Source of the DNA: Teichococcus deserti
GTDB taxonomy: Bacteria > Pseudomonadota > Alphaproteobacteria > Acetobacterales > Acetobacteraceae
Direction of reading: 5' to 3'
Assembly (NCBI RefSeq): GCF_001982615.1
Contig: NZ_MLCO01000105.1
Span: 1-33,389, forward strand
DNA: 33,389 bases
Shown here one piece after another: positions 2,817 through 20,954 of this stretch. A program made the translations under genes and the position numbers. Under the pieces are notes generated by a model that saw nothing but the letters and a program-made list of their open reading frames with translations, searched no databases and had not been told where the DNA came from. Within the stretch, counting starts at the first letter, position 1. Each line of letters begins with the position of its first letter.

Positions 2817-3260
2817 TCAGCGTCTCGCGTTCCATCTGCAGCCGTCCGTCGCGGCCGTTGTCACACGGAAGGGGCCGGGCTCGACAATTCCGTCGCGCTG
2901 GAGGTGCCAGAGCAGCCGGCTGAGGGCTTCCCCCCAAAGCTGGGCGTCGCCGGGGTGCCGGTGCGGGTCGGGGGCCTCCTGGCGCTCGCCCCAACGGCGC
3001 AGCACGCGAGCATGCGACAGGTCGAGGCGGCGCTGGCGATAGAGCCGGTCGAGGTGCTTCACCACGTCGTCGGGATCGCAAGGCCGCGGCGGCCGTGGCG
3101 CGCCCATCGCCGGGCTCTGCCCGCGCAGCTGGGTGAGCGGAGCGCCATCACGGCGCGCGACCAACGCGGCCATGGTCCAGAACCAGGCCTCCGCGGCGCT
3201 GGCAAACGGCATCGCCCGCTCGCGACAAAGCGCGGCGGGTGCCGTGGGGTTCGGGAGCAT
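2817..3260 (-). CDS. Hypothetical phage protein
   Basis: A 147-residue protein with normal GC-rich codon use. It has an aromatic N-terminal helix (SAAEAWFWTMAALVARRDGA), a charged central helix (DPDDVVKHLDRLYRQRRLDLSHARVLRRWGERQ) and a Trp-containing C-terminal part. I believe similar proteins are common in alphaproteobacterial prophages, but I know no function. The true start may be the Met at residue 17, since MPFASAAEAW looks like a natural N-terminus. It is the last gene of the leftward early block and is separated from the gene upstream by a strong terminator. Confidence 0.65.
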   Translation of the reverse strand: MLPNPTAPAALCRERAMPFASAAEAWFWTMAALVARRDGAPLTQLRGQSPAMGAPRPPRPCDPDDVVKHLDRLYRQRRLDLSHARVLRRWGERQEAPDPHRHPGDAQLWGEALSRLLWHLQRDGIVEPGPFRVTTAATDGCRWNARR

Positions 3261-3436: not shown

Positions 3437-4216
3437 TCATCGCAAGTCCCACAGATGGACCAGCACCGCGAGCCCTTCCCGGACCCGGTGAGCCGCGGCC
3501 GGCTCCCGCAGAATGACCGCGTCGCGCACCGCGTTGGCGTGCTCCAGGCTCGTCCGCTGCTGAACCTCGAGCATCCACTTCTGGTAATCCTGCCAGGCGC
3601 GGGCCGCCCAAACCTGGTCGGCCGCCGATAGGTCTCCCGCACCCGCGGAGGACTTGCCGAAGTCCCTCGGCAGCTCCATCGCCGGCAGGGCGTCGCGCCA
3701 GGTGTCTGCCAGGATGGCTGCCGCCTCCTGCTGGCGGATGTCCAGGTCCATCCAGTGGAGCGGGCTATGGTCAAGCATCTGCCGCGCTTCGGCACCGCTA
3801 TCGCGGGCGGGCTGCACGACCTGCGACGGCCGGGCCGACATGGCCTGGCCGTCCGCACCCCGGTCCTTGCTGAAGAACGCATCGGCTTTCGCCTGCCGTC
3901 GCGCCCATTCCGCCTCCCGGTCCCGCTCTGCCAGCGAACGCGCGCGCACGTACTCGGCGTCTATCCGTTCCATGCGGCCTTCGGCGATCAGCAGCTGCAC
4001 GAGCCGTCCGGCCTGGTTCCGCATGCGCTCCATCCGCGCCGGATCAGGCGTCACCGGCTCGGGCTCGATGGGCCGACGGTGCGTCACCTCGGCCGGCGGG
4101 AAAACCGGCTGGCGCTTCAGCCGGGCGACCCGCGCCTTGCGAAGCGGGGCGGCGGAGGCCGGAAGAGCGGAAGCCTGCGCTTCCAGGGTGGGGTCGATCT
4201 TGCGGGCCGCTGTCAT
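3437..4216 (-). CDS. Hypothetical protein downstream of replication gene
   Basis: A 259-residue protein with a good Shine-Dalgarno (ggagg) six bases before the ATG. The first ~60 residues are basic and Pro-rich (LRKARVARLKRQPVFPPAE), probably disordered. Next come charged helices (RMERMRNQAGRLVQLLIAEGRMERIDAEYVRA) and then a Trp-rich helical domain (HSPLHWMDLDIRQQEAAAILADTWRDAL ... WAARAWQDYQKWMLEVQQR). No enzyme motif is recognised. By position after the O-like initiator, in the leftward operon and before a terminator, it could serve replication or late regulation. That is inference from place only. Confidence 0.65.
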   Translation of the reverse strand: MTAARKIDPTLEAQASALPASAAPLRKARVARLKRQPVFPPAEVTHRRPIEPEPVTPDPARMERMRNQAGRLVQLLIAEGRMERIDAEYVRARSLAERDREAEWARRQAKADAFFSKDRGADGQAMSARPSQVVQPARDSGAEARQMLDHSPLHWMDLDIRQQEAAAILADTWRDALPAMELPRDFGKSSAGAGDLSAADQVWAARAWQDYQKWMLEVQQRTSLEHANAVRDAVILREPAAAHRVREGLAVLVHLWDLR

Positions 4217-4303
4217 CGTGCCTCCAGGGAGCCGGCTTCCCCGGCGTCAAGCTAAAGTTACACGACATTGCGATAGAAGACGATATAATTTTCGCTATTT
4301 CGT

Positions 4304-4335
4304 GAACAATGCCGGAAACATTCCGGTCATTGTTC
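4304..4335. promoter_or_regulatory. Long inverted repeat in early operon
   Basis: GAACAATG (4304-4311) pairs with CATTGTTC (4328-4335), and CCGGAA (4312-4317) with TTCCGG (4321-4326), leaving a 3-base loop and one bulged T. There is no T-run on either side, so it is not a classical terminator. AT-rich sequence follows it toward the 3437-4216 gene (minus-strand TTATAT near 4285-4280), so an operator overlapping an internal promoter is possible. Confidence 0.5.
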
Positions 4336-4363
4336 GTGATACTGGACCTTGGCGGAGCGCTCC

Positions 4364-5347
4364 TCACGCGGCCACTTGGCGGCATGCCACCTCCCAGGCC
4401 GGCGCGCAGTGGTTGCGCAGGAAGCCTTCGACCTTGATGCGCCGCTGGTTGTTCTCCGGAACCTTCAGGCGGACCATTTCGGCGAATTCGTCCACCAAGG
4501 CCCGCTCCTTCGGGGTCAGGCCATCCGCGTCCTTGCTTGGCACATCGGCGGCAGCGGGCTCTCCTCCCGCTGCTGCCACCCCGCCGGCAGCCGGCGCGGC
4601 CGGAGCGTCTTCGAGGCACCACAGCTGCCAGCGGGCAGACCAGTCGGCGCAAACGGCGCCCTTGGCCCGGAAATGGAGCTGGAACCGGACCCAGATCGCG
4701 TCGGGGTCGAGGCCGCGCTCGGCGGCGAACTGCCGATCATCCTCCCCCGGATGCCAACCCTCCAGGGGGCGCGGGGTCGAGCGCGCGCTCGCGCGCTCCC
4801 CCCCTGATGGTTCTTTGATGGTTCTATGATGGTTCTGGGGGCAACTGCTGCCCCCTAAATCTGCAGATTTTGCCCCCTTGAGCGACGAATTTTGCCCCCT
4901 TGCCACAGTGGGAAGGGGGCGGCTGCTGCCCCCTTTGGAAGGCAAGGGGGCGCCATTTGCCCCCTTCCTGCCAATTGCGCCAGGGGTAACGTCCAAGCTT
5001 TTGATATCGCATGAATTATCATCGTGTTCTGACGCTGCTTCGTCGAAGGGGGCATAATCTGCCCCCTTCGCCTCAGCCGACGGCCGCCAGCCCTGCCGGA
5101 GGTAGTAGCGGGAGGATCGGCGGAAGCGCTGCTCAACCCGCAGCGCGCCCATTGCCTCGAGCTGCCGCAACGCGGTCCGCACGGTCCGCTCGCTCAGGCT
5201 GGTATGCCGCTGCAGGCTCTCCAGCGTGGGCCAGCAGCTCCACTCCTCGTCGGCATGGTCAGCCAGCCGCAGCAGCACCAGGCGCTGTGACGGGCCGATG
5301 GCGCCGGGCGGGATGTTCCACGCCCAGGAGGTGGCTTCGACGCTCAT
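4364..5347 (-). CDS. Replication initiator, lambda O-like
   Basis: A 327-residue protein. Residues ~18-75 form a winged helix-turn-helix (GPSQRLVLLRLADHAD ... CWPTLESLQRHTSLSERTVRTALRQLEAMGALRVEQR), the HTH_36 type found in phage and plasmid initiators. Residues ~90-190 are low-complexity Gly/Ser/Lys-rich. Residues ~195-327 form a second helical region (AAERGLDPDAIWVRFQLHFRAKG ... LTPKERALVDEFAEMVRLKVP) suited to contact a helicase or loader. The middle of the gene carries many DNA repeats, as in lambda O, whose gene contains its own origin. The start overlaps the stop of the upstream regulator (ATGA). No separate helicase or loader gene was recognised, so host DnaB recruitment is inferred. 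Confidence 0.75.
   Translation of the reverse strand: MSVEATSWAWNIPPGAIGPSQRLVLLRLADHADEEWSCWPTLESLQRHTSLSERTVRTALRQLEAMGALRVEQRFRRSSRYYLRQGWRPSAEAKGADYAPFDEAASEHDDNSCDIKSLDVTPGAIGRKGANGAPLPSKGGSSRPLPTVARGQNSSLKGAKSADLGGSSCPQNHHRTIKEPSGGERASARSTPRPLEGWHPGEDDRQFAAERGLDPDAIWVRFQLHFRAKGAVCADWSARWQLWCLEDAPAAPAAGGVAAAGGEPAAADVPSKDADGLTPKERALVDEFAEMVRLKVPENNQRRIKVEGFLRNHCAPAWEVACRQVAA
4805..5070. repeat. Putative replication origin: iterons inside initiator gene
   Basis: Three copies of TGATGGTTCT start at 4805, 4816 and 4827, spaced exactly 11 bp. TGCCCCCTT-type repeats (the first copy, at 4849, ends in a single T) start at 4849, 4871, 4893 (22-bp steps), 4927, 4958 and 5060. Inverted copies are at about 4837, 4913, 4944 and 5045. 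The pair at 5044-5054 and 5060-5070 makes a perfect 11-bp inverted repeat. An AT-rich patch lies at about 4992-5026. Steps of 11 and 22 bp are helical and not multiples of three, so the repeated bases encode different residues; the constraint is on DNA, as for iterons. Confidence 0.75.
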
Positions 5348-5874
5348 GCGACCCTCCGCGGCGCTTCGCGCACGCCTAGCTTGGCGCCCTCAACCAACGA
5401 CCGGAGGCTGGCGACCAGGCGCTTGCCGTCAGCGATCATCTCCAGCGCCTCGCGCTCGATCTTGGCGGCGTCGGCCGCGCAGATCCTGCCATCGCGCAGC
5501 GCGTTCGCGACCGCCGCCTGCACATCGGCCACCTCGCTCGACCATTCGGCGATGCAGGCCAGCACCTGCTCGCCGCCGGCGGCTTCGAGCGGCACCAGCC
5601 CATAGCCGGCCTGGCGCGCCACCTCGACCAGCAGCTCCGGCGGAGACGGCGTGTCGCCGCGTGCAACCGCCTCTTCGCGCTGCAGAGCGGTCAGCCGCAG
5701 CAGCACGTCGAGAGGCATGAAGTGGTCGCTGTTACGACTTTGGTAGGTCGCCAGCTGCGACTTTCCGACCCGGGTCTCGAGCGCAACGGCATCCAGCGGC
5801 CCGCGGTCCTCCAGCAGCCGTCGTGTGGCTGCCTTCAGCATCTCTTCGCCGGGGGTGAGATGGACGGGGGTCAT
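5344..5874 (-). CDS. CII-family phage regulatory protein
   Basis: A 176-residue protein. Residues ~15-60 contain LLEDRGPLDAVALETRVGKSQLATYQSRNSDHFMPLDVLLRLTAL. The 'GKSQL..YQS.N...FMPLDV' pattern is characteristic of the Phage_CP76/CII-family regulators of prophages. The C-terminal half is helical (ADVQAAVANALRDGRICAADAAKIEREALEMIADGKRLVASLRSLVE). It lies between the cro-like gene and the O-like gene, the position of lambda cII, and its stop overlaps the initiator start by ATGA. A role in the lysis/lysogeny decision is inferred from family and place. Confidence 0.78.
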   Translation of the reverse strand: MTPVHLTPGEEMLKAATRRLLEDRGPLDAVALETRVGKSQLATYQSRNSDHFMPLDVLLRLTALQREEAVARGDTPSPPELLVEVARQAGYGLVPLEAAGGEQVLACIAEWSSEVADVQAAVANALRDGRICAADAAKIEREALEMIADGKRLVASLRSLVEGAKLGVREAPRRVA

Positions 5875-5992
5875 GCGGACAAGCTCCGGTAGGCTAAGCT
5901 CAGGCTTCGAGAAATGATGCGACCATGCAATGCGATGAACGGCTCAGGCATCGGATCGGGGTGCTTGGGCCAGCACGGAGGCGGACGTGTGT

Positions 5993-6208
5993 TCACGTCG
6001 CCTCCTCCAGCTCGGGAGCCGCGCGAGGAACGAAGTCCGCAGCAGTGACCGCGCCCTCTGTCTTCCGCTCAATGTCGGCAACCGCGGTCCAGGTTGGCCT
6101 GCGCTTCAGGGAGAGCCAGCTGTGAACCGTCGAAACCGGATGGCCCAGCAGGGTTGCCAAGGCAACCAAGGTGAGCCCGCGGGCCTTCTGGAATTCGCTA
6201 AGGGTCAT
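5993..6208 (-). CDS. Cro-like HTH repressor
   Basis: A 71-residue protein beginning MTLSEFQKARGLTLVALATLLGHPVSTVHSWLSLKRRP, a typical small Cro/YdaS-type helix-turn-helix, with an acidic C-terminal tail (PELEEAT). I chose ATG 6208 because the sequence upstream of it is the switch region. It is the first gene of the leftward early operon. The predicted -10 box ends only five bases before the ATG, so its mRNA would be leaderless or nearly so, which fits the absence of a Shine-Dalgarno. Confidence 0.8.
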   Translation of the reverse strand: MTLSEFQKARGLTLVALATLLGHPVSTVHSWLSLKRRPTWTAVADIERKTEGAVTAADFVPRAAPELEEAT

Positions 6209-6213
6209 ACCGT

Positions 6214-6243
6214 AATTTACGCGCTGAGTAGAAATCCGCGCAA
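6214..6243 (-). promoter_or_regulatory. PR-like early promoter, leftward
   Basis: On the minus strand the -35 is TTGCGC (6243-6238) and the -10 is TAAATT (6219-6214), with an 18-bp spacer. The spacer contains the half-site ATTTCTACT, as in the matching module at 6687-6716. It points into the cro-like gene, and transcription would begin at about 6207-6208, on the start codon. Confidence 0.65.
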
Positions 6244-6284
6244 GGTGGAATTCTACCGAGAGGTTCTGCCGCCCAGTTTCTACC
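6228..6284. promoter_or_regulatory. Operator region between cro-like and repressor genes
   Basis: GTAGAAATCC (6228-6237) and GGAATTCTAC (6247-6256) are a near-perfect inverted pair (consensus half-site GTAGAA). A third half-site, TTTCTACC, is at 6277-6284 close to the repressor start. The first pair covers the PR-like -35 and spacer. Three half-sites between divergent repressor genes is the layout of a lambdoid right operator. Confidence 0.65.
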
Positions 6285-6301
6285 GGAACGACAATCCGGG
6301 C

Positions 6302-6661
6302 ATGAACCTCCCGGAAAGCGCTTTGTCCCCTGAATCCCAGGCCATGCAGGCAAACCTCAAAACCTGGCGAAAGCATAGGAACCTCACACTAGCGGCACTT
6401 GCAGAACATACCGGGAACAAGCTATCTACTCTGTCAAGCTGGGAGAACGGAAAAAGAGCTATGTCTTTGGACGATCTACAGAAGCTCGCCACCTTCTATG
6501 GCGTTCATCCGGCCGCATTGCTGATGGCGCCCCAGAATGCAGCTCCTGTCGTTGCTCGGATGCAAACCGCAGCTAGCATCGCGGCCGGGCTGGATGATGA
6601 AGCGGCGGAGGCTTGGCTCACCATGGGGCGCCGAGCGAGCGACAGGCCGCGCGAATCGTAG
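6302..6661 (+). CDS. CI-like repressor, XRE family, no peptidase domain
   Basis: A 119-residue protein. The XRE helix-turn-helix spans residues ~18-70 (LKTWRKHRNLTLAALAEHTGNKLSTLSSWENGKRAMSLDDLQKLATFYGVHPAALL). The remaining ~45 residues are a short helical tail. There is no LexA/S24-type peptidase, so RecA-triggered self-cleavage, the usual induction route, is not available. The gene is divergent from cro. ATG 6302 has no Shine-Dalgarno but lies six bases after a possible -10 (GACAAT, 6290-6295), suggesting leaderless translation as for lambda cI from PRM. ATG 6344 is an alternative start. Operators of the same half-site type flank it on both sides. Confidence 0.8.
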   Translation: MNLPESALSPESQAMQANLKTWRKHRNLTLAALAEHTGNKLSTLSSWENGKRAMSLDDLQKLATFYGVHPAALLMAPQNAAPVVARMQTAASIAAGLDDEAAEAWLTMGRRASDRPRES

Positions 6662-6671
6662 TTCCACGTAG

Positions 6672-6716
6672 AGTAGAAATTTTCTCTTGCGTAAATTTCT
6701 ACTGAGAGTGTAAATT
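6672..6716 (+). promoter_or_regulatory. PL-like early promoter and operator, rightward
   Basis: The operator pair AGTAGAAATT (6672-6681) and AATTTCTACT (6694-6703) is a perfect 10-bp inverted repeat. The promoter has -35 TTGCGT (6687-6692), an 18-bp spacer and -10 TAAATT (6711-6716). The module repeats the layout of the PR-like site on the opposite strand. It lies just after the repressor stop and points into the rightward early genes. Confidence 0.65.
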
Positions 6717-6745
6717 TTCCTCGCTTTCCAGTGAGGGAGATTAGA

Positions 6746-6916
6746 GTGCGCAGATCGGAGAGGGGCCACGGCCCCGCAAGGCGCCGGCTGGCCGGCACCG
6801 ACAACCGCCGCATCGTTTCCGAGAGCGTCCGCGACGGTGTCGAGCGCGTCTATCACGCGACCAAGGGCTGGCGGACCCGGCGCATTGCGCCGGCCGCGAA
6901 GACGCCGCGCTCATGA
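6746..6916 (+). CDS. Small basic early protein
   Basis: A 56-residue, strongly Arg-rich protein from GTG 6746, chosen because AGGGAG (6734-6739) lies six bases upstream; GTG 6731 is in frame but lacks a Shine-Dalgarno. The middle (RRIVSESVRDGVERVYHATKGWRTRR) looks helical and could bind nucleic acid. It is the first gene of the rightward early transcript, where lambda carries N, but there is no clear similarity to an antiterminator. It overlaps the next start by ATGA. Confidence 0.55.
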   Translation: MRRSERGHGPARRRLAGTDNRRIVSESVRDGVERVYHATKGWRTRRIAPAAKTPRS

Positions 6917-7248
6917 AGCTGCCCCTAGGCCCTGCCACCCTCTGCTTCGCGATCAGCGACCTGGTGCCGCTGCTGCCCGACCTGCGCAATGCCGCGGGGC
7001 ACGCGAACGCGGAAGCCATCAAAGCTCAGGAAGCGGGCGAGCAGCTGCTGTGCCAGGCGACAGCGCACATGACTTTGCGCCTCCTCTTCCCCGGCGGCTT
7101 CTTCCAATCCGCCGAAGCGCCCAGCCCCGAAGAAGCGAGCCTGCTCCGCCAGGCCGAGGTCTGCGCACAGAACGCTCGCAGCGCGCAAGCACGCGCCGCT
7201 CGCCTCACCGCCCTTATCCAGACTGTCGAGGCCAACCCATGCAGCTGA
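6913..7248 (+). CDS. Hypothetical early protein
   Basis: A 111-residue, Ala/Leu/Gln-rich, mostly helical protein, translationally coupled to the preceding gene (ATGA) and overlapping the next gene by ten bases. The C-terminal half (EEASLLRQAEVCAQNARSAQARAARLTALIQTVEA) is a likely coiled coil. No family recognised. The tight overlaps and consistent codon use support that it is real. Confidence 0.6.
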   Translation: MKLPLGPATLCFAISDLVPLLPDLRNAAGHANAEAIKAQEAGEQLLCQATAHMTLRLLFPGGFFQSAEAPSPEEASLLRQAEVCAQNARSAQARAARLTALIQTVEANPCS

Positions 7249-7598
7249 TTTCTGCCCAGGCCGCTGATCGATCGATCCTCGGCCTTCCCGCGCCGCCGGC
7301 CGCCGCCGCGCCGGGCATCTTCGCCAGCGTGCGCCAGGCGCGCGCTGCCCTGCTCCGCGCCTCGGCCGACTTCTGCCTGCGCCGCGCCGCCAGCTACGGC
7401 ATGAAGCGCGACGCCGCGCCGCCGGCCAGCATGCTCCGCTGCTTCCTGCACGCCAAGCAGCACGGCTGGGCCGCGCAGGCCGCCGCCTACCAGGCCATGG
7501 CCGAGGGGCGCGACGCCGACGCGAAGGAGGCCTTCGCGGTGTCCGACGAGGCCTTCCTGCGCGCCTCCGACATGAGGGCGCTCGCATGGCCTGCCTGA
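7239..7598 (+). CDS. Hypothetical early protein
   Basis: A 119-residue Ala-rich helical protein from ATG 7239, which overlaps the end of the preceding gene. It has several Arg/Lys-flanked helices (RQARAALLRASADFCLRRAASYGMKRD ... AKQHGWAAQAAAYQAMAEGRDADAKEAFAV). No domain recognised. It overlaps the start of the next gene by 13 bases, consistent with one compact rightward early operon. Confidence 0.55.
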   Translation: MQLISAQAADRSILGLPAPPAAAAPGIFASVRQARAALLRASADFCLRRAASYGMKRDAAPPASMLRCFLHAKQHGWAAQAAAYQAMAEGRDADAKEAFAVSDEAFLRASDMRALAWPA

Positions 7599-7903
7599 CC
7601 CCCTGCCCTTCCCCGTGCTCGGCCCTCGGCGCTACCGACAGCGCCAAGCTCCACAAGCAGATCGAACAGCGCCAGCGCACCTTCATGCGTCTTGGGCCTA
7701 AGCTGGTCGTGGATATGGACCAGCACGAAGTCGCCTGCCTCATCGCCGAGGCCATCCTCGACCTACAGCGCCCTGCCGGCTCAACTCCGACCCAGGCCCT
7801 CGCAGCCTTCCAGCCGGAGGACCGCACCGGCTTCTACCGTGCGGCGGTTGCAGCGATAGGCTACTTGGCCAAGAAGACCCACACTGCACACAGGACGTTC
7901 TAA
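7586..7903 (+). CDS. Hypothetical early protein
   Basis: A 105-residue protein, last of four overlapping rightward early genes. The central segment (RLGPKLVVDMDQHEVACLIAEAILDLQRP) and the C-terminal AFQPEDRTGFYRAAVAAIGYLAKK look like a folded helical domain. No family recognised. It ends 14 bp before the first par-type palindrome. Confidence 0.6.
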   Translation: MACLTPCPSPCSALGATDSAKLHKQIEQRQRTFMRLGPKLVVDMDQHEVACLIAEAILDLQRPAGSTPTQALAAFQPEDRTGFYRAAVAAIGYLAKKTHTAHRTF

Positions 7904-7917
7904 GCACGCCATTGTTT

Positions 7918-7949
7918 ATAGATATCTAGCTATCTAGCTAGATATCTAT
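7918..7949. repeat. Perfect 32-bp palindrome, candidate centromere site
   Basis: ATAGATATCTAGCTA (7918-7932) and TAGCTAGATATCTAT (7935-7949) are perfect inverted arms of 15 bp around a 2-bp centre. Further TATCTATC/GTAGATAGC repeats run to about 7966. The same TAGCTAGATA core recurs before parA and after its partner gene. The rest of the gap, 7967-8117, shows no gene. Confidence 0.7.
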
Positions 7950-8117
7950 CTATCTGTGTAGATAGCTTTGCTGCGCTGCGGCCGCCGCCACTTCCATGCT
8001 TGGCAGAGCTCAGATGTCAAAACGGCCGCCAGCAGGCGGCGGACTGATGTGGCCGTGCAAGGCTGCATCCATCGCCGCACCTGCTCTGTGCAAAACCCTT
8101 CAGCTCTCCTGAAATCC

Positions 8118-8164
8118 ATCTAGCTAGAAAGATATAAATCTAGCTAGATAGCTAGGAAGCTAGG
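8118..8164. promoter_or_regulatory. parA upstream repeat block, likely operator
   Basis: ATCTAGCTAGA occurs at 8118-8128 and again at 8138-8148 (20-bp step), followed by GATAGCTAGGAAGCTAGG. The block ends 16 bp before the parA start, where Par proteins commonly bind to repress their own operon. It is AT-rich and could include the par promoter. Confidence 0.6.
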
Positions 8165-8179
8165 TATGGAGCGGGTGCT

Positions 8180-8827
8180 GTGATTCTAATGGTTGGCGGT
8201 GAAAAGGGTGGTGTCGGCAAGACGACCCTTGCAACACACATGGCCGCTGCGCGGGCGGCCATGGGCAGAACCGTCGTACTGGTGGATGCTGATAGCCAGG
8301 GCACCTCCACAATTTGGAGCGATGCCCGAAAAGAGCATCAGCAGGTACCGCAATTTCCGTGCGTCAGCCTCCGCGGTGGCAAAGTGCATATCGAACTGCG
8401 GGAGCTGGCCCGCCACTACCAGGATGTGGTGGTGGATACTGGCGGCGCAGATAGCCAGGAGTTTCGCTCGGCCATGCTTGCCGCGAACACGCTGCTGATG
8501 CCGCTGCGGCCGGGCTCCTTCGACTTCTGGACCCTAATCAAGATGGGCGAGGTCGTGGCGCTGGCGGAAGGCTTCAACGACAACCTAAAAGCGGCGGTCT
8601 GCCTATCGCAGGTGCCGCCGACTGCTCTGGACCGGGCCAGGAAGGAAGCGGCTGAGGTAATGACCGATGTTCCACGCTTCACCCTACTGAATAGCCTGAC
8701 GGTGTTCCGGGCGGCCTTTAACCACTCGGCCGGCGAGGGCCTAACCGTCGACGAGATGCCGAGGCGCGATCCCAAAGCCTGCAGCGAAATCGGCTTCCTC
8801 CACGACGAGCTTTTCGCAGGAGCTTGA
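8180..8827 (+). CDS. parA: ParA-family partition ATPase
   Basis: A 215-residue protein from GTG 8180 (ggag eight bases upstream). The deviant Walker A motif GGEKGGVGKTT is at residues 6-16 with both signature lysines (9 and 14). VVLVDADSQG (about 33-42) is motif A', and DVVVDTGG (about 84-91) is Walker B. It is short and has no N-terminal DNA-binding domain, so it is the small (type Ib) ParA that works with a small DNA-binding partner. It segregates low-copy circular replicons along the nucleoid. The next gene supplies the partner and both sides carry repeat sites. The presence of this locus is the main evidence for a plasmid-like prophage. Confidence 0.92.
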   Translation: MILMVGGEKGGVGKTTLATHMAAARAAMGRTVVLVDADSQGTSTIWSDARKEHQQVPQFPCVSLRGGKVHIELRELARHYQDVVVDTGGADSQEFRSAMLAANTLLMPLRPGSFDFWTLIKMGEVVALAEGFNDNLKAAVCLSQVPPTALDRARKEAAEVMTDVPRFTLLNSLTVFRAAFNHSAGEGLTVDEMPRRDPKACSEIGFLHDELFAGA

Positions 8828-8829
8828 GC

Positions 8830-9114
8830 ATGGCCATCAAGATGCCGCCGCGCCGCCCTTCGGCCCCGGCCACCGCCGAGGATTTCATTGCCGGCGCTTC
8901 CGCAGCCCCTGCCCCTCGCCTGGATCTCCCATGGACAGATCCCAAGGTTCGGCCGGATCTGCGTGTGCAGATGAACGTCAAAGTGGCCGAACCGCTGGCG
9001 CTGAAGTGCCACTACCTGGCCTTGCGCCTGGGGCTTCGGAAGCAGGATGTGATGGAGCGGGCTCTCTCTGAATGGACGGACGAGCAGCTCAAGAAGCTTG
9101 GCTTGCCGAACTAG
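8830..9114 (+). CDS. Small centromere-binding protein (ParG/RHH type)
   Basis: A 94-residue protein. I chose ATG 8830 because AGGAG (8818-8822) lies seven bases upstream; the gene starts two bases after the parA stop. Residues 1-40 are a Pro/Ala-rich flexible tail. Residues ~41-94 (RPDLRVQMNVKVAEPLALKCHYLALRLGLRKQDVMERALSEWTDEQLKKLG) have a strand followed by two helices, as in ribbon-helix-helix partners of small ParA proteins such as ParG. It should bind the flanking palindromes and stimulate ParA. The assignment rests on fold pattern and position; sequence similarity within such partners is low. Confidence 0.72.
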   Translation: MAIKMPPRRPSAPATAEDFIAGASAAPAPRLDLPWTDPKVRPDLRVQMNVKVAEPLALKCHYLALRLGLRKQDVMERALSEWTDEQLKKLGLPN

Positions 9115-9128
9115 CTAGAAAAATATTT

Positions 9129-9168
9129 AGTTAGATAGCTATAAAGATATCTTTCTAGCTATCTAACT
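9129..9168. repeat. Near-perfect 40-bp palindrome after par genes
   Basis: AGTTAGATAGCTA (9129-9141) and TAGCTATCTAACT (9156-9168) are perfect 13-bp arms around AAAGATATCTTT (9143-9154), itself a palindrome. Only the pair 9142/9155 fails to match. A further CTAGCTAGAAA is at 9111-9121. The core matches the repeats before parA. There is no downstream T-run, so a centromere site is more likely than a terminator. The gap 9169-9423 shows no gene. Confidence 0.7.
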
Positions 9169-9423
9169 CTCTGAATTTCCTTTCTTGTCATTGGAAGCTC
9201 GGCGGGGAATCATTGAACCGTCGCGCATCCCCGCGCGGCCTTGATTCGCCCAAAACAGAAAGGGCCGGGCCAGCAGCAGAGCTACCAGACACCGACCCTT
9301 TCAAAACCGAACCGTAGCCCGGCAGGCGTGAGAACCCCAGGCTACGGCGATGCTCGGAAAACCGCAAGCGCGCGGTGAGGGGTATCTGCGTCCAAAATCC
9401 TGGTGCTGGGCTGGCAGATCGCC

Positions 9424-10005
9424 ATGCCCATTCGAACCTTTGCGCCCGCCCGGCGGGGCTCGGTCGCTGTCGCGAGCTGGCAGCGGCAGCGGCTCGGACA
9501 CACCGACCGCGTGCAGCTGATGGACGCTGCGCGGCGACGCGAACGCGCGACCCGCCAGCCCGGCAGCGGCCGCCACGGCGGCGAGCTGCGGCAGACCGGC
9601 CTGCGGGTGCTTTGGGCGCTGCTCTACCGCGGCTGGGGGCGCGCCGGCGCCTGCGATCCGGCCATTGCTCAGATCGCGGAGGCGGCCGCCGTCGCACGCT
9701 CGACGGCACAGGAAGCGCTCGGCCGCCTCGAGGCCGCCGGCATCCTGCTGCGGATCCGCCGCGGCCTGGTGGTGGGGCGGCGCTGGTGCCAGGTGACCAG
9801 CGCCTATCTGTTCCAGGAGCCGGCACGGTGGGCGCCGCCGAGCGATACCGAAAGCCGGTCACCCTCAGCCTCTGAAGATAATATCCAGGAAGAAGAATGG
9901 CAGAGGACGGCGCTGCCCGAGCCGACTGCGCCGCCAGATCCGGCCATGCTGCGGGAGATTGCAGCCCGGTGGGGGCTGCTGGAGGCTCTGGAAGCCGCCG
10001 CTTAG
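9424..10005 (+). CDS. Winged-helix protein, plasmid replication-like
   Basis: A 193-residue protein from ATG 9424 (GTG 9403 also in frame). The N-terminus is basic (RTFAPARRGSVAVASWQRQRLGHTDRVQLMDAARRRERATRQPG). The core is a winged helix (LRVLWALLYRG ... CDPAIAQIAEAAAVARSTAQEALGRLEAAGILLRIRRGLVVGRRWCQVTSAYLF). It resembles a family I associate with replication proteins of alphaproteobacterial plasmids and prophages, though a purely regulatory role is possible. It lies directly after the partition locus. If it is an initiator, this element carries two. The C-terminal ~60 residues are acidic and Pro-rich. Confidence 0.6.
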   Translation: MPIRTFAPARRGSVAVASWQRQRLGHTDRVQLMDAARRRERATRQPGSGRHGGELRQTGLRVLWALLYRGWGRAGACDPAIAQIAEAAAVARSTAQEALGRLEAAGILLRIRRGLVVGRRWCQVTSAYLFQEPARWAPPSDTESRSPSASEDNIQEEEWQRTALPEPTAPPDPAMLREIAARWGLLEALEAAA

Positions 10006-10087
10006 GCAGGGCAGGGGAGGGCAGCCAGGAAAGCGTCACCTCCGGCATCACCTCTCGCGAGAATTAGGCGGCAGGATCATCTGCCTT

Positions 10088-10102
10088 GTTCTCTGTTCGT
10101 TC
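10088..10102. promoter_or_regulatory. LexA (SOS) box before umuDC operon
   Basis: GTTCTCTGTTCGTTC is a GTTC-N7-GTTC direct repeat, the LexA site of Alphaproteobacteria. It overlaps a possible -35 (TTGTTC, 10086-10091) that is 17 bp from TAGGGT (10109-10114). It lies 60 bp before the first gene of the operon. Confidence 0.82.
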
Positions 10103-10162
10103 ACGTCTTAGGGTGGTTGCCGTGCCCCCCCGCGCTACGTTGTGCCTCGCCTGGAGCTGCTG

Positions 10163-10522
10163 ATGTCCCGCAAGACCGCCCGACCCTCCGCCGAACCCAA
10201 GCCTAAGTCGATCCAGACCAAGGAGGCGCTGAAGCGTCTGGCCGACCTGGCCAGCAAGCCGGTGGCCCCCGACAGGATCCGCCGCGAGGTCGAGGGCATG
10301 GTGAAGATCTGGCTGGACGGCGCCGGCGACGAGCGGCGGATCGAGCTGCGCGACAAGCTCGAGGAGATGGGCGGCGAGCTGGGCGAGGGCGTCGAGGCTG
10401 CCACCGAAGCCCTGGGCGACCTGGACAACGAGGACCTGGCCGGCAAGCGCCACGCCACGGCGGCGCTGCACGCGCTGCGCGCGGCCAAGGACGCCCTCGT
10501 GCAGGCGCGCACCAGCCTCTGA
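10163..10522 (+). CDS. Hypothetical protein in SOS operon
   Basis: A 119-residue protein from ATG 10163 with ggag eight bases upstream. It has a basic, Pro-rich N-terminus (SRKTARPSAEPKPKS), then mostly charged amphipathic helices (TKEALKRLADLASK ... ERRIELRDKLEEMGGELGEGVEAATEAL ... ATAALHALRAAKDALVQA). No family recognised. It lies between the LexA box and the umuD-like gene with only four bases before the latter, so it is damage-inducible and may act with the polymerase. Confidence 0.65.
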   Translation: MSRKTARPSAEPKPKSIQTKEALKRLADLASKPVAPDRIRREVEGMVKIWLDGAGDERRIELRDKLEEMGGELGEGVEAATEALGDLDNEDLAGKRHATAALHALRAAKDALVQARTSL

Positions 10523-10526
10523 TGCC

Positions 10527-10919
10527 ATGGGCCAGCAGGAACCCCCCGGCGGATATACTGGCGCCGAGACCACCGGCTTTGTCTCGCCGGCGGGCGACAG
10601 CCTGGAAGGCCCCATCGACCTCGAGGTCGCGCTCGACCTGCGCCGGCCCAATCGCTACCTGGTCCGCGTCTCCGGCGATGCCTTGCGCGAGCACGGCATC
10701 CTGTCCGAGGACATTCTGGTCACCGATGCTGCTATCCCGCCCCGGGTCGGCGCCGTCGCCATCGTCATGCTGCATGGCGACGTCGTGGTGGCGCGCCTGG
10801 CGCTGAAGGACGGCACCTGGTGGCTGCAATCCGGCCGCCGCGGCCGCCATAGCGTCGCCGTGCCGGAAGATGCCGAGATCTGGGGCGTGGCGACCGCCCT
10901 CGTCCGAGATCGGATGTAG
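10527..10919 (+). CDS. umuD: UmuD-like protein, catalytically dead
   Basis: A 130-residue protein clearly related to UmuD: GFVSPAGD at residues 17-24 matches the region after the UmuD cleavage point, and VSGDALREHGILSEDILVTD and HGDVVVARL match the catalytic core. In UmuD the nucleophile is Ser60 in GDSM and the base is Lys97 in VKKL, 37 residues apart. Here the equivalents are Ala52 (GDAL) and Ala89 (VVARL), also 37 apart. Self-cleavage and LexA-like peptidase activity should therefore be lost. Only 16 residues precede the cleavage-like region, so the protein may work directly as a UmuD'-like subunit of the polymerase encoded next. A role as a non-cleavable inhibitor is the alternative. Confidence 0.85.
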   Translation: MGQQEPPGGYTGAETTGFVSPAGDSLEGPIDLEVALDLRRPNRYLVRVSGDALREHGILSEDILVTDAAIPPRVGAVAIVMLHGDVVVARLALKDGTWWLQSGRRGRHSVAVPEDAEIWGVATALVRDRM

Positions 10920-10924
10920 CGGCC

Positions 10925-12184
10925 ATGCCCAGCACCTATGGGCTGATCGACGGCAATTCCTTCTACTGCTCGGCCGAGCGCGCCTTCGCGCCCGTGCTGC
11001 GCGGCGCCGCGGTGGTGGTGCTGTCGAACAATGACGGCTGCGCCATCGCCAGGACCGCGGAGGCCAAGGCGCTGGGCATCAAGATGGGCGATCCCTGGCA
11101 TCTGATCCGCGAGCGCCGCGAGCTGCGCGACGTGCGCTGGTTCAGCAGCAACTACCCGCTGTATGGCGACATGTCGCGCCGGGTCTACCAGGTGCTCGCC
11201 GAGCGGCTGCCGCGGGTCGAGCCCTACAGCATCGACGAGATGTTCCTGGATCTCGACGTGCCGGGCGATCTGCGCCGGCTGTGCCAGGAGCTGCGGGAGG
11301 TGGTGCGCCGCATCGCCAAGATCCCGACCTGCGTCGGCTGGGGGCCGACCAAGACCATCGCCAAGCTGGCCAACGGCATCGCCAAGGATCATCCCGAGCT
11401 CGACGGCCTGTGCGACCTGACCGACCCACTGGTGCGGGCCGGCTGGTACGAACGCCTCGGGATAGGGGGCGTCTGGGGCATCGGCCGGCGCACCGAGGAG
11501 AAGCTGGCCCAGCTCGGCATCCGCAGCATCGCCGACTTCCTGGCGCTGGACCCGCGCATGGCCCGCGACCTGCTGACGGTGGTCGGCGGCCGGGTGCAGG
11601 AGGAGCTGCGCGGCGTCTCCTGCCTGCCGTTGCAGCTGATGGCGGCGCCGCGGAAGGGGCTGGCGGTGACCCGGTCTTTCGGCCGGCCCGTACTGACCTG
11701 GCGCGACATGCGGGAGGCGGTCGCCGCCTATGCCGCCCGGGCGGCCGAGAAGCTGCGGGCCGAGGGTATGGAGGCCTGCCACATGCAGGTCTTCCTGCAC
11801 ACCAACCCGCATGACGGCAGCACCTGGTACTCGGCACAGCGCAGCGCTCGCATCGAGCCGACCAGCGACACGCTGGCGCTGATCGGCGAGGCGATGCGGC
11901 TGCTGCCGCCGCTGTGGCGGGATGGCTTCGCCTACGCCAAGGCCGGGATCATGCTGACCGACCTGGTGCCGGCGCGGCAGCAGGCCCGGATGTTCCAGAC
12001 CCGCGATCCTGTGCGTTCGGCGAAGACCATGGCGGCGCTGGATGCGGTCAACGAGCGCTTTGGCCGCGGCACTCTGCGGCCGCTGGCGACCGGCATCACC
12101 CGATCATGGGGCACCCGACAGCAGAAGCTGTCGCAGCGCTACACCACCAGGATCGAGGAAATCATGCGGGCGACTGCACTCTGA
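10925..12184 (+). CDS. umuC: UmuC, Y-family DNA polymerase V catalytic subunit
   Basis: A 419-residue protein, full length for the family. Catalytic acidic residues are present: Asp9 in LIDGNSFYCSAE, and Asp104-Glu105 in YSIDEMFLD. PTCVGWGPTKTIAKLANGIAK (about 143-163) is the palm/thumb motif, and VWGIGRRTEEKLAQLGI a helix-hairpin-helix. The C-terminal little-finger domain includes the ITRSWGTRQQKLSQRYTT region typical of UmuC. A clamp-binding motif is at best weak (QARMF). It performs error-prone bypass of damaged DNA as part of an SOS operon, where the partner UmuD-like protein is already catalytically inert. Confidence 0.95.
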   Translation: MPSTYGLIDGNSFYCSAERAFAPVLRGAAVVVLSNNDGCAIARTAEAKALGIKMGDPWHLIRERRELRDVRWFSSNYPLYGDMSRRVYQVLAERLPRVEPYSIDEMFLDLDVPGDLRRLCQELREVVRRIAKIPTCVGWGPTKTIAKLANGIAKDHPELDGLCDLTDPLVRAGWYERLGIGGVWGIGRRTEEKLAQLGIRSIADFLALDPRMARDLLTVVGGRVQEELRGVSCLPLQLMAAPRKGLAVTRSFGRPVLTWRDMREAVAAYAARAAEKLRAEGMEACHMQVFLHTNPHDGSTWYSAQRSARIEPTSDTLALIGEAMRLLPPLWRDGFAYAKAGIMLTDLVPARQQARMFQTRDPVRSAKTMAALDAVNERFGRGTLRPLATGITRSWGTRQQKLSQRYTTRIEEIMRATAL

Positions 12185-12313
12185 TGTGGATCGAGCAGAC
12201 CCATGGGATCAGGGCGGGAAAAGTTGCGCTGGGCAATAAAGCATTTCCAATTTCGGCACAGTCTAAGCGGGCTCATCCTATTCGAGTGATGAAGAAACTG
12301 GCACGACAGAGGG

Positions 12314-12526
12314 ATGTTTGTGGTGCGGGAATTGTCCTTTTTTGCCACCGCAACGGTATATCAGCTCGTGACAATGTTGATCTTCATCATTGTTTGCTAC
12401 GCCATTGTCGTGCCGGGCTTCTACTTCTTGGCCTGGATCTTGGATGTCGCGATGGCGCGCATTTACCAGCGGGGAAATGCGGTCGCACAGTCTGGCTCGG
12501 AGCCTCATCGCAACGTCATCCGCTGA
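12314..12526 (+). CDS. Small membrane protein
   Basis: Up to 70 residues, with a long hydrophobic stretch at about residues 16-44 (VYQLVTMLIFIIVCYAIVVPGFYFLAWIL) interrupted by a Pro-Gly, followed by a polar C-terminus. This fits one long or two short membrane helices. The start is uncertain: the Shine-Dalgarno-like agaggg is too close to ATG 12314 and better placed for GTG 12320. The surrounding island is less GC-rich than the rest. Function unknown; superinfection exclusion would be a guess from size and place. The rest of 12185-12624 shows nothing else I can support. Confidence 0.5.
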   Translation: MFVVRELSFFATATVYQLVTMLIFIIVCYAIVVPGFYFLAWILDVAMARIYQRGNAVAQSGSEPHRNVIR

Positions 12527-12624
12527 CCGACAGTATGGCATCTGCACGCGCTGCCAGATCAGGGCCGATATTAAAAGGTTATCGTGCAAAGAAGGTCGTC
12601 GGCAGCCGCTTCGAAGAGCAGCCA

Positions 12625-12981
12625 TCACATCGCCAACAACTCTTCGACGACCTTGTGGAAGCGCCCATGGGCCACCGGGTGAAGCATCTGTGGGCGCCCC
12701 TGGCACAAAGAGTCTCCGCTACTCAGCGGCACATCATTGACCATCATCGAAGGTACGTTCTGCCGACGGAGACATTCCGCCAGCAGAGCGACGCGATGGT
12801 CGCGAAGCTGGGCATTGAAGACTACGAAATCGACGTTGCCAAGCAACAGGATGTCGAGCGCTGCGTCCTCGCTTGGAACAGGCCCCAAGATCGTCGCCCC
12901 CATCTCATGCAGAGAAAGAGCCAGCTCCATTGCCGAATAGTAGTTTGTCTCGACCACGAGAATTCTGCGGCCTCTCAACAT
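12625..12981 (-). CDS. Degenerate response-regulator receiver domain
   Basis: A 118-residue stand-alone receiver-like protein (from ATG 12981; ATG 13047 is an alternative). It begins RRILVVE and keeps the receiver pattern: ALSLHEMGATILGPVPSEDAALDILLLGNVDFVVFNAQLRDHRV. The phosphorylated Asp is replaced by Asn56 (FN instead of LD). The acidic partner after VVE is Thr12, the switch Thr position reads MMVND, and the conserved Lys-Pro reads His-Pro. All phosphotransfer residues are therefore missing. It resembles the single-domain receivers common in Alphaproteobacteria. It is on the opposite strand from its neighbours and in an AT-richer patch, so it may be an acquired gene acting as a decoy or binding partner. 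Confidence 0.65.
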   Translation of the reverse strand: MLRGRRILVVETNYYSAMELALSLHEMGATILGPVPSEDAALDILLLGNVDFVVFNAQLRDHRVALLAECLRRQNVPSMMVNDVPLSSGDSLCQGRPQMLHPVAHGRFHKVVEELLAM

Positions 12982-13114
12982 AAAGCTGAAGTCCAAGATA
13001 TGAGGTTCTTCTACCAACGCACCAATGCAGGTGCGAATTTTCACCATGCATGATTTTAAAGCCGATAAAACAACATGGGTTGGGCCGCCCATAGAGATGA
13101 AAGGCATGCACAGC

Positions 13115-13435
13115 ATGGTGAACGGGAATTATCGTGCACGGTCGGCCGGCCTGGCGCGCGCCATCGCCGCCGCACCGGCCCCAGTCGAGCCGATGACGTC
13201 GTATGAGTTCAGCCAGGCGCTGCGCGTAATCCGCTGGACCCCCGGCGAGGCGGCCGAGCGGCTTGGCTTCGCGCCAAGCACAATCCGCAAGATGATCAGC
13301 GAATATGGTAGGATCCCAGAAGATGTTGCCGCTTGGCTGCGCCCCTATGCCGCCGAGACCGCCGCTTTGAACGCGCGGCATCCACCGCCGCAGCGCATCG
13401 GCCAGACCGTCCCCGCCAAGGAGCGCGGCCAATGA
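13115..13435 (+). CDS. Small HTH protein
   Basis: A 106-residue protein if started at ATG 13115; ATG 13193 (MTSYEFSQALRVIRW) is a plausible shorter start, and neither has a strong Shine-Dalgarno. Residues ~27-70 contain a Cro/XRE-like helix-turn-helix (FSQALRVIRWTPGEAAERLGFAPSTIRKMISEYGRIPEDVAAWLRPYA), followed by a Pro/Arg tail. It is the first of a run of rightward genes joined by ATGA overlaps and may regulate them. GC-rich codon use resumes here after the AT-richer island. Confidence 0.65.
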   Translation: MVNGNYRARSAGLARAIAAAPAPVEPMTSYEFSQALRVIRWTPGEAAERLGFAPSTIRKMISEYGRIPEDVAAWLRPYAAETAALNARHPPPQRIGQTVPAKERGQ

Positions 13436-13617
13436 ATCTTCGCCCTGTCTCCCCCCGGCGGATCGTCGAGACGCTCGACGCCCTCGACTGGATGCGCGCC
13501 AAAGGCGGCGAGGATCGCGGCCAGATGGCCGATGCCGCGAAGCAATGGGCGGACGGCCTTGGCCAGGTGCCCGAGGCCGTGGCCGTGCGGCTGCAAGCCG
13601 GCCCGCCCCAGTCATGA
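13432..13617 (+). CDS. Small hypothetical protein
   Basis: A 61-residue protein whose ATG overlaps the stop of the HTH gene (ATGA); its own stop overlaps the next start in the same way. The sequence is helical and charged (RIVETLDALDWMRAKGGEDRGQMADAAKQWADGL). No family recognised. Support comes from the coupling on both sides. Confidence 0.55.
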   Translation: MNLRPVSPRRIVETLDALDWMRAKGGEDRGQMADAAKQWADGLGQVPEAVAVRLQAGPPQS

Positions 13618-13937
13618 CCGCGCCGGCGCAGGATGATGGTCCGATCACCCTGCCGCCGGCGGGGGGATGCCTGGGCGACTGGAAGGGCTGGTGGCTGCAG
13701 CTCACCTGCGACTGCGGCCGCAGCCTGCGCATGGTGGACCACCTCGCAGAGAGCAAGCGGCTGCCGGGTTGGTATCCCTTGCCGGCGGCCGTCTACCTGA
13801 TGCGATGCCGCCAGTGCTACGGCCGGCCGAAGGCGGCGGAGCTGCAGCACGGGAGGCCGGTCGGCGGGCATGGCGCGCCCCATATGGGCCGGAACAGCCT
13901 GCGCGTGCCGCTGCTGGACGAGCTGTTCGGCGACTGA
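13614..13937 (+). CDS. Hypothetical protein with Cys-pair (zinc-ribbon-like) motif
   Basis: A 107-residue protein with two Cys pairs, CDCG (about residues 32-35) and CRQC (about 65-68), separated by a helix-forming segment (RMVDHLAESKRLPGWYPLPAAVYLM). This fits a treble-clef or zinc-ribbon fold. The next gene has a similar shape, so the two may be related. It is translationally coupled to the gene before it. Metal binding is inferred from the Cys spacing; function unknown. Confidence 0.6.
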   Translation: MTAPAQDDGPITLPPAGGCLGDWKGWWLQLTCDCGRSLRMVDHLAESKRLPGWYPLPAAVYLMRCRQCYGRPKAAELQHGRPVGGHGAPHMGRNSLRVPLLDELFGD

Positions 13938-16656: not shown

Positions 16657-16833
16657 ATGTCCAGCTTCTACGCGATGACCCGCAGTCAGCAGGCGATCCG
16701 AGAGCTGCTTTTTGTGACTTACGACAGGATAGGCAATCGGCCGCTCTTTATCGCCATCTACCCCGACACGCCTGCGCCCCAGGGGCGCGCAAGGAGAAAA
16801 TATGGAAAATCCTCAAGTATTCATATCGTATAG
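16657..16833 (+). pseudogene. Truncated SRAP (YedK/HMCES-like) gene
   Basis: A 58-codon frame with a Shine-Dalgarno (aggaa). Residues 1-42 follow the N-terminus of bacterial SRAP proteins (family pattern MCNLYS...QxAIRxLF...DRxGNxPP...FPDxxAPxxR); here MSSFYAMTRSQQAIREL, then DRIGNRPLF and YPDTPAPQGR. Two defects are clear. The catalytic Cys2, which traps abasic DNA ends, is Ser, and everything after about residue 42 is missing, replaced by the 5' end of the SEFIR gene in another frame. Intact SRAP proteins are about 200 residues or more. It looks like the remnant left by insertion of the SEFIR gene. Confidence 0.72.
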
Positions 16834-19558: not shown

Positions 19559-20101
19559 TCAGGACGCCAGGCGCATGGCCTGGAAGGGCAGGGAGGCCAG
19601 CCGGCGCGCCCAGCCCAGGCCGAAGGTGGCCCAGGTGGACAGCGCGGCCATCAGGACGATGCGGCGGGCCTGAAACTCGATGGCGACGGCGGTGACCCGG
19701 TCGGGGTCGCCGTTGCCCACAGCGCGGCGCAGGGCGGCCAGGGTGGCCGGGCCGATCAGGCCATCGGCCGGGGTGCCGATGCTGGCCTGCAGCAGCTTCA
19801 CAGCCGCCGCGACGCCGTTGTTCACCGCGCTGTCGAAGACCAGCAGGGCGAGCGCCGGCGGCAACTCGTCGCCGCGCACACGGTCCCAGTAGAGCCGGCG
19901 GTAGATGGCGCGGGCGTCCTCGAGGGTCAGCGCCGCGATATCGAGGGTCGGGAAGCTGGCGGCCGAGATGCCGAACTTGGTGCCGCGCAGCAGGCCCTTG
20001 TCGGGCTTGCCGCCGGTCCAGTTGCCGGGATCGGCGCGGTTGAGGGTGAAGCCGCCCTCATGCTCGAGCAGGCGGGCGAGGGCGTGGTCGAATGCGGTCA
20101 C
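19559..20101 (-). CDS. Endolysin, GH108 family muramidase
   Basis: A 180-residue protein from a GTG that overlaps the preceding stop (GTGA). LEHEGGFTLNRADPGNWTGG at the N-terminus carries the catalytic Glu15 in the E-G-G motif of glycoside hydrolase family 108. RGTKFGISAASFP follows, and the C-terminal part (LLVFDSAVNNGVAAAVKLLQASIGTPADGLIGPATLAAL) is the usual peptidoglycan-binding type 3 domain. It cleaves the glycan strands of peptidoglycan at the end of the lytic cycle. No signal peptide is seen, so export depends on a holin, and candidates flank it. Confidence 0.93.
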   Translation of the reverse strand: MTAFDHALARLLEHEGGFTLNRADPGNWTGGKPDKGLLRGTKFGISAASFPTLDIAALTLEDARAIYRRLYWDRVRGDELPPALALLVFDSAVNNGVAAAVKLLQASIGTPADGLIGPATLAALRRAVGNGDPDRVTAVAIEFQARRIVLMAALSTWATFGLGWARRLASLPFQAMRLAS

Positions 20102-20412
20102 GGCTTGGCCTTCTTCAGGGCGGGCACCAGGTGCCCGAGGAGGGGCTCGATGGCGTCGGGCCCGATGCGCGCCAGCAGGGCGATGCAGAGCGTGGCGCCG
20201 CCGGCGGACAGGCCGGCCCACTGCGCCAGCGCCAGGCCGATCAGGCCCATGGCGCAGGCGGTGGGCACCTCCCAGAACAGGGTCCAGAGGATCTTGCGCG
20301 GCGTGACGGCCTGGCGGGTCGCGCGCAGCAGCAGGGTGGCGCGGCCGGCGAGCGCGGCCGAGAAGGCCCAGGCGATGTCGCTGGGCGAGGGCAGGGGGTC
20401 GAAGACGCTCAT
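20098..20412 (-). CDS. Holin-like membrane protein (LydA type)
   Basis: A 104-residue protein. An N-terminal amphipathic/charged region (GRATLLLRATRQAVTPRKILWTLFWEVPTACAMG) leads into two hydrophobic segments at about residues 49-66 and 70-84. The pattern 'LxWExPTAxxMGxxGxxLAxxxGL' is that of LydA-family phage holins. Its stop overlaps the endolysin start. It probably forms the lesions that let the endolysin reach the wall. Confidence 0.75.
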   Translation of the reverse strand: MSVFDPLPSPSDIAWAFSAALAGRATLLLRATRQAVTPRKILWTLFWEVPTACAMGLIGLALAQWAGLSAGGATLCIALLARIGPDAIEPLLGHLVPALKKAKP

Positions 20413-20415
20413 GGG

Positions 20416-20943: not shown

Positions 20944-20954
20944 GGGGCAGGGCC

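Follow-up and report, generated by a model that had tools for sequence, protein, structure and literature searches.

Positions 4805 to 5066 of the window (the whole stretch of DNA analyzed, 33,389 nucleotides from Teichococcus deserti) probably constitute a lambda-like replication origin lying inside the gene of a phage replication initiator. Two classes of repeats make up this candidate origin: 19-bp palindromes (hereafter referred to as class 1), which would bind dimers of the initiator, and an adjoining array of short repeats with a GAACC core (hereafter referred to as class 2), which would be the opening element. The sequence of the candidate origin is under selection at the DNA level. From the sequences compared, class 1 differs between lineages, whereas class 2 recurs and is common to initiators with different class-1 sites.

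The initiator gene and its surroundings

The gene (positions 4364-5347, minus strand) encodes an O-like protein of 327 amino acids and is, judged by family, a phage replication initiator. Pfam places an HTH_36 domain (PF13730; E = 2.8e-13, 49.9 bits, cut-off 25) at the N-terminus, and the best PHROG match is phrog_1032, “replication initiation protein” (E = 4.4e-27), followed by O-like PHROGs; no Phage_rep_O match was reported by Pfam at E-values up to 0.001 or 0.01. The AlphaFold model is divided into three blocks, all encoded on the minus strand: a winged-helix domain (residues 1-90, positions 5078-5347, pLDDT 91-98), within which HTH_36 covers residues 17-67; a linker predicted to be disordered (residues 91-190, positions 4778-5077, pLDDT 45-54); and a small helical domain (residues 192-247, positions 4607-4774, pLDDT 81-96). 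The entire candidate origin lies within the linker-coding DNA. The top matches of a structure search with the initiator were winged-helix chains, none of them at a Foldseek E-value of up to 0.001. A single-protein sequence search of solved structures returned mostly designed ankyrin proteins and no initiator, and a profile search returned weak winged-helix matches, including the “chromosome replication initiation protein” 2vn2 (E = 0.007). The region of the small helical domain aligns with the C-terminus of a second initiator (L184), in a part related to DnaT-like sequences; the match of that C-terminus to DnaT (PF17948) is weak and under the curated cut-off (E = 7.3e-4), another member of the same cluster (L084) reaches 2.7e-6, and Pfam gave no DnaT match for the window protein itself.

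A CII-like regulator (Phage_CP76; positions 5344-5874, minus strand; PF06892, E = 1.1e-8; phrog_101, E = 2e-14) lies immediately upstream and overlaps the start of the initiator gene by 4 bp. No helicase-loader gene was recognized adjoining the initiator: the next gene (3437-4216) and the ORF at 2817-3260 had no Pfam or PHROG match at E-values up to 0.001, a threshold that remote relatives could escape. The window also carries endolysin, tail and tape-measure genes. The phage would be temperate and its host a Roseomonas-like alphaproteobacterium. A ParA-like gene (8180-9114; phrog_164, E = 6.2e-35) is followed by a 96-amino acid ORF without a family, and the prophage may persist as a plasmid. 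Other genes on this phage contig encode a 485-amino acid SEFIR/TIR-like protein (16802-18259), which strongly matches bSEFIR, a defence model (E = 4.5e-94), and a UmuC-type translesion polymerase (10925-12184; IMS, E = 1.1e-27). At positions 87-164, a poly-T run is followed by a sequence that we take to be Illumina-adapter-like, and the translation of the ORF at 25-648 contains what is presumably a familiar artefact peptide; the first ~165 bases may therefore be an assembly artefact.

Two classes of repeats within the linker-coding DNA

The class-1 unit is a 19-bp palindrome, GGGGGC-N7-GCCCCC, present at 4837-4855 (GGGGGCAACTGCTGCCCCC), 4915-4933 (GGGGGCGGCTGCTGCCCCC), 4946-4964 (GGGGGCGCCATTTGCCCCC) and 5048-5066 (GGGGGCATAATCTGCCCCC), and these are the only four exact matches in the whole window. 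The parallel with lambda ori drawn in the initial annotation thus holds, with four 19-bp palindromes inside an initiator gene. The half-site TGCCCCC starts at 4849 (where it reads TGCCCCCTA), 4871, 4893, 4927, 4958 and 5060, the copies at 4871-4877 and 4893-4899 (plus strand) being orphans; GGGGGCA starts in the region at 4837 and 5048. Eight half-sites fall within 4805-5070, versus five in the remaining ~33.1 kb, and synonymous-codon shuffles of the initiator ORF (n = 2000) gave a mean of 1.29 and a maximum of 6. The 22-bp step described earlier for these repeats applies to three half-sites only (4849, 4871 and 4893), the other steps being 34, 31 and 102 bp.

The class-2 repeat, TGATGGTTCT, starts at 4805, 4816 and 4827 (4805-4814, 4816-4825 and 4827-4836), at the exact 11-bp steps initially reported, and is absent from both strands elsewhere in the window. 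Because coding runs along the minus strand, the coding-sense form of the repeat is AGAACCATCA. Together, the copies fill 4805-4836, so that there is no gap between the array and the palindrome starting at 4837 (junction 4836/4837). The 11-bp triple never arose when the codons of the initiator ORF were shuffled synonymously 2000 times. The GC content of this 32-bp array is 0.375, versus 0.67 for the window. A further AT-rich patch (4980-5040, GC 0.46) had been described as adjoining the repeats; it exists, but lies inside the gap between two palindromes (4965-5047) rather than beside the whole set. This patch is a second candidate opening site and could replace the array in that role.

The involvement of a DnaA box was rejected: there is no TTWTNCACA box in positions 4301-5900, the nearest sequence being a single two-mismatch site at 5874. 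GC-skew gave no clear origin signal in the window (extremes at 8,119 and 25,261). In the related Roseomonas marmotae plasmid p1318-7 (L221), the extremes lie at 22,756 and 32,995 and the initiator gene at 20,001-20,990.

The repeats are maintained as DNA rather than as protein

Two exact repeats separated by a step of 11 bp were found in 32 stretches of IMG/VR sequence, among which are the contig of the window itself and some near-identical copies. Every one of the 32 is located within an HTH initiator ORF, in its sense strand. A second scan accepted pairs of 9-mers with steps of anything between 9 and 29 bp and yielded at least 111 loci absent from the first. Among the matches listed, the steps inside HTH ORFs were of 10 (6 cases), 11 (9), 12 (20), 13 (1), 15 (5) and 20-27 bp (20), and 33 of these 61 were not multiples of three. 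Outside HTH ORFs, again among the matches listed, 69 of 72 steps were multiples of three (69 of 74 with the loci of the first scan, which add two 13-bp steps). Two of the three exceptions among the 72 belong to a single locus (L148), and its linker suggests that an initiator gene has been truncated there by the end of the contig. The motif is therefore repeated as protein elsewhere and as DNA in initiators. All three codon phases are used by the 87 copies found in 26 initiator genes (36/22/29).

Synonymous conservation was estimated as codon identity at shared residues. In the best-sampled group (44 relatives, HTH domains 83-100% alike), this identity was 42-66% over the first seven ten-column blocks, then rose to 78, 86, 97, 96 and 85% over the five blocks covering the class-1 sites and the array, the values of 97 and 96% corresponding to the last class-1 sites and the array, and was 52-75% afterwards. 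Three copies at 11 and 12 bp were present in 24 of the 25 arrays examined in this group, the remaining one having two; one of the 25 carries K in place of V within the array and retains the core. In a second group (n = 16), identity increased from 42-63% to 76-100% where the repeats lie, and the C-terminal blocks ranged from 48 to 94%; in a third (n = 7), it increased from 28-47% to 74-79%. The rise was modest and the contrast weaker in a fourth (n = 6; 43-85% to 93-96%). Among the genes with HTH domains 67-76% alike to the query, 31 of the 32 listed contain three or four copies spaced by 10-12 bp, and the letters between the cores vary. The GC content of third codon positions in the arrays is 0.41 (vs 0.72) and is lower in 25 of 26 genes, which is supportive, although the arrays had been picked out by their own sequence.

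The initial annotation had argued that the repeats could not be protein repeats, and this is borne out: in relatives, the 10-13-bp steps are mostly kept and frame and residues differ, the reverse of residues being retained with repeat number and spacing lost. It had also proposed a comparison of homologs for spacing retained as residues change. The sampled groups follow this pattern, the best-sampled ones showing the highest conservation of synonymous codons where the repeats lie, but a three-copy array is absent from 29 of the 55 initiator genes described below.

Recurrence of the array in initiator genes

Initiator genes were gathered by protein from 145, 299 and 369 genomes, together with viral contigs and named phages. 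Among loci L004-L021, L169-L198 and L222-L330, 139 yielded an HTH ORF extending for 100 residues or more beyond the domain, and the rest were dropped. After the removal of HTH domains at least 70% alike, 54 of these 139 and the window formed a set of 55 non-redundant genes. All 1024 5-mers were then compared over the 540 bp after the HTH. GAACC was the word most frequently found in chains of at least three copies at 10-13-bp steps (15 of 55 genes, shuffle mean 1.4), the runner-up being AACCA (7 of 55). This test is independent of the choice of word; the step range of 10-13 bp was set after the loci had been viewed.

A stricter motif rule caught just five of 30 loci (shuffle expectation 0.38), and a shorter core was therefore adopted; it was chosen after the viewing of these 30 loci and seven relatives, and many of them recur in the set of 55. 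With this relaxed core (GAAYC or WAACC), arrays were found in 26 of the 55 genes, versus a shuffle mean of 3.3 (maximum 6), with none on the antisense strand and 0-2 for other step ranges; this proportion may overstate prevalence, because the HTH profiles were built largely from motif-bearing loci. The 29 protein-selected genes without a three-copy array were scored under the same rule. A few of the 26, including L008 and L321, resemble chance or simple repeats. Steps were of 11 (28), 12 (19), 10 (10) and 13 bp (4), and 42 of the 61 were not multiples of three. The helical spacing initially proposed is retained in the sense that steps of 10-13 bp are kept, but pure one-turn phasing is too strict, because 12-bp steps are common (19 of 61). 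The letters 3' of GAACC weakly favor A/G, T/C, C and A. Non-core bases of the array had a GC content of 0.39, versus 0.62 for the flanks, and were lower in all 26 genes.

Class-1 sites and C-terminal parts vary between initiators sharing the array

The 26 protein-selected genes were combined with 40 pattern-selected genes, which were chosen by motif and are thus uninformative on prevalence, to give 66 non-redundant array genes. Of these 66, 55 were scanned with Pfam; HTH_36 was found in all of them, and the RP-C N-terminal model matched seven. Upstream palindromes vary widely over the 66 genes (for instance, GTGCG-CGCAC, GGTGAAC-GTTCACC, CGGAAC-GTTCCG, GTGTCCG-CGGACAC and GGACA-TGTCC), and the class-1 half-site does not always coincide with the commonest 6-mer. 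Upstream iteron palindromes were detected in 63 of the 66 genes, but the rule is loose, with shuffles giving 47.1, so that only the gap result is informative: in 31 of 63 genes, no more than 6 bp separate the last palindrome from the array, versus 0.19 of 943 shuffled cases. The distinction of two repeat classes made in the initial annotation was right, class 2 being common to initiators with different class-1 sites.

The C-terminal parts of the 66 proteins fell into clusters of 18, 11 (including the window), 7, 4, 3, 3, 2 and 2 members, plus 16 singletons (BLAST, E-values up to 1e-3, single linkage). As they are spread over so many clusters, no single C-terminal domain is obvious as the common reader of the array.

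Distribution in genomes, phages and plasmids

The three-copy pattern was found in 22 stretches from 84,980 species genomes, 14 of which map to HTH initiator linkers: eight from Pseudomonadota, four from Verrucomicrobiota, one from Roseithermus (an isolate with a complete chromosome) and one from Hydrogenedentota, with some of these phylum placements being presumed. The Verrucomicrobiota and Hydrogenedentota entries, L204 and L219 are metagenome-assembled, and the host labels of these entries hinge on binning. The remaining stretches comprise L207, which resembles an initiator gene truncated at the start of its contig, and seven others.

Fifteen named phages were fetched by protein (15 of the 60 listed of 438 matching records). 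Chains of at least three copies were present in four (Pseudomonas LPPA33, Rhodococcus Tonitrus, E. coli mEp460 and Arthrobacter SerialPhiller), and two copies in another four (Microcystis Mvi-Yong1342-1, Bifidobacterium Bbif-1, Salmonella SI8 and Thermus Lalka27a). In Lalka27a, the annotated CDS has its pair close to its start, and the pair found with the relaxed-core rule lies in another ORF. The other seven had one copy or none (SfIV, mEp044, Vibrio K73, ValentiniPuff, for which the CDS is of 88 codons, Aeromonas 56, Butyrivibrio Ceridwen and Lactobacillus PL-1). Two further named phages, fetched for the motif, carry three copies. Lambda has no GAACC chain after its iterons and only a two-copy chain before them. 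The initiator gene of a Massilia plasmid has four copies at steps of 11, 12 and 11 bp, and that of an Arsenophonus plasmid has no array by the rule.

Other repeats were observed in some of the array-less linkers. The Butyrivibrio and Lactobacillus phage genes (L327, 1471-2226, and L328, 1417-2286) share AATAATACAAGTATTAAT, which occurs twice, overlapping, in L327 and is perhaps a different opening element in that phylum. The Vibrio K73 (L320, 1501-2430) and Aeromonas 56 (L326, 1501-2253) genes have 12-bp repeats around CCTAACAA where others have GAACC; these may be a drifted form of the array.

The initiator of p1318-7, a 39.6-kb plasmid, is related to that of the window and is the only initiator-like gene among the 37 features listed, which include ParA and form an incomplete annotation. 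This suggests that the initiator family can drive a replicon. The same plasmid carries a CRISPR-Cas set (4632-13884) with a type I-D Cas7 annotation.

Discussion

We propose that the winged-helix domain would bind the four 19-bp palindromes as a dimer, as modeled on lambda O, and that this binding would stress the adjoining class-2 array, with its GAACC core, its steps of 10-12 bp and its locally AT-rich composition. The array would then open, and initiator molecules would hold one strand through the phased repeats, after the examples of RctB (PMC11711613) and plasmid Rep proteins (PMC4081077; PMC10797057), leaving a gap for the host helicase, which would be loaded on the other strand. By analogy with RctB and TrfA, class 2 is probably read as a single strand. 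Beside its last iteron, a lambda-type origin has an A+T-rich tract of ~40 bp; here, the 32-bp array abuts a palindrome, and a second AT-rich patch lies between palindromes. RctB/TrfA-type origins have short, regularly spaced repeats in a locally AT-rich segment beside the iterons, and this arrangement is found here. The 60% GC content of GAACC, which is unusual for an unwinding element, argues against the array in this role.

A wider proposal, to which we would give slightly less than an even chance, is that the GAACC array is an origin-opening module shared, across several phyla, by phage initiators with different duplex sites and C-terminal domains, each initiator gene having it next to its own iterons, and read by a conserved component. 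This reader would be either the common winged helix, acting on the single strand, or a universal host replication protein.

Alternatively, class 2 might be bound as a double strand by a conserved host factor, or might serve the initiator as a second, weaker site, rather than being the opening element, with the roles of class 1 and of the origin unchanged. We regard this as unlikely, if worth serious attention. The array co-occurs with different class-1 sites and with eight multi-member C-terminal clusters and 16 singletons, and, because both the class-1 sites and the C-terminal parts differ, such a site would have to be read by a common host factor or by the shared winged helix; steps of nearly one helical turn would suit a protein lining one face of the DNA. 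However, the frequent 12-bp steps drift off one face, positions 4301-5900 contain no DnaA box, and the low GC content of the non-core bases points to opening. It is much less probable that the repeats are operators or other regulatory sites, for a repressor or for partition, with the true origin elsewhere. A ParA gene and HTH regulators do lie within 4 kb, and repeats beside par genes can be parS sites, but the sites are inside the initiator gene, at the place of lambda ori, and arrays occur in initiator genes across genomes and on plasmids. Finally, although EPS- or NHQ-like peptides are encoded by many linkers, a conserved linker peptide motif (EPS, NHQ and similar) has next to no probability and was rejected on codon phase, step sizes and synonymous conservation, given the use of three phases, the steps that are not multiples of three in initiators and almost always are elsewhere among the matches listed, the predicted disorder of the linker and the loss of the signal in codon shuffles.

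The favored lambda-like in-gene origin can be compared with known systems. RctB belongs to another family, and ori2 is located outside the RctB gene; the RepC origin lies within repC. In-gene origins are already known, from lambda and from the RepA_N plasmid pSK41, the origin of which is described as central within rep (PMC5703833); both RepA_N and the RepC of repABC replicons belong to other Pfam families than the window protein. Lambda ori has four ~19-bp inverted-repeat iterons that bind initiator dimers (PMC5043065 and PMC7466680). The window shares with it the position of the candidate origin inside the initiator gene, a cII or CII-like gene directly upstream and a candidate opening region beside the iterons. 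Lambda differs in its iteron sequence and in having an A+T-rich tract without a GAACC chain after the iterons, and the window protein has HTH_36, is not reported as Phage_rep_O and has no recognized P-like gene downstream. Thus, although it would work in a similar manner, the candidate origin in the window is set apart from that of lambda by a protein that is not Phage_rep_O by Pfam and by a different putative opening element.

At Vibrio cholerae ori2, RctB engages six regularly spaced ATCA repeats of the opened unwinding element as a single strand (PMC11711613 and PMC10797057). There, too, iterons adjoin a repeat-bearing element, and the class-2 repeats of the window end in ATCA, but the window differs in its GAACC core and in the location of its candidate origin within the gene. 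The winged-helix Rep proteins TrfA of RK2 and RepE of F bind both the iteron duplex and one strand of the repeats of the unwinding element, which in RK2 are 13-mers (PMC4081077). The iterons of such plasmids are mostly direct repeats rather than palindromes (PMC5043065), unlike the class-1 sites of the window, and the 13-mers of RK2 are a further difference. The DnaA-trio is likewise a short repeated motif read as a single strand beside a duplex site (PMC10797057), but its motif is of 3 nt and lies beside a DnaA box, whereas the class-2 array has a period of 11 bp and there is no such box in 4301-5900. No description of a shared GAACC array was found in the open-access literature searched.

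The array provides a sequence rule for locating the origins of phages and phage-like plasmids of a common type, the initiators of which often carry no annotation more specific than “helix-turn-helix protein”, “hypothetical protein” or “primosomal protein I”. The codons of a linker predicted to be disordered would be dictated by the origin, in a case of heavy double coding. The part of the origin specific to each replicon (class 1) is separable from the part shared between replicons (class 2), which makes the proposed opening and the common reader directly testable.
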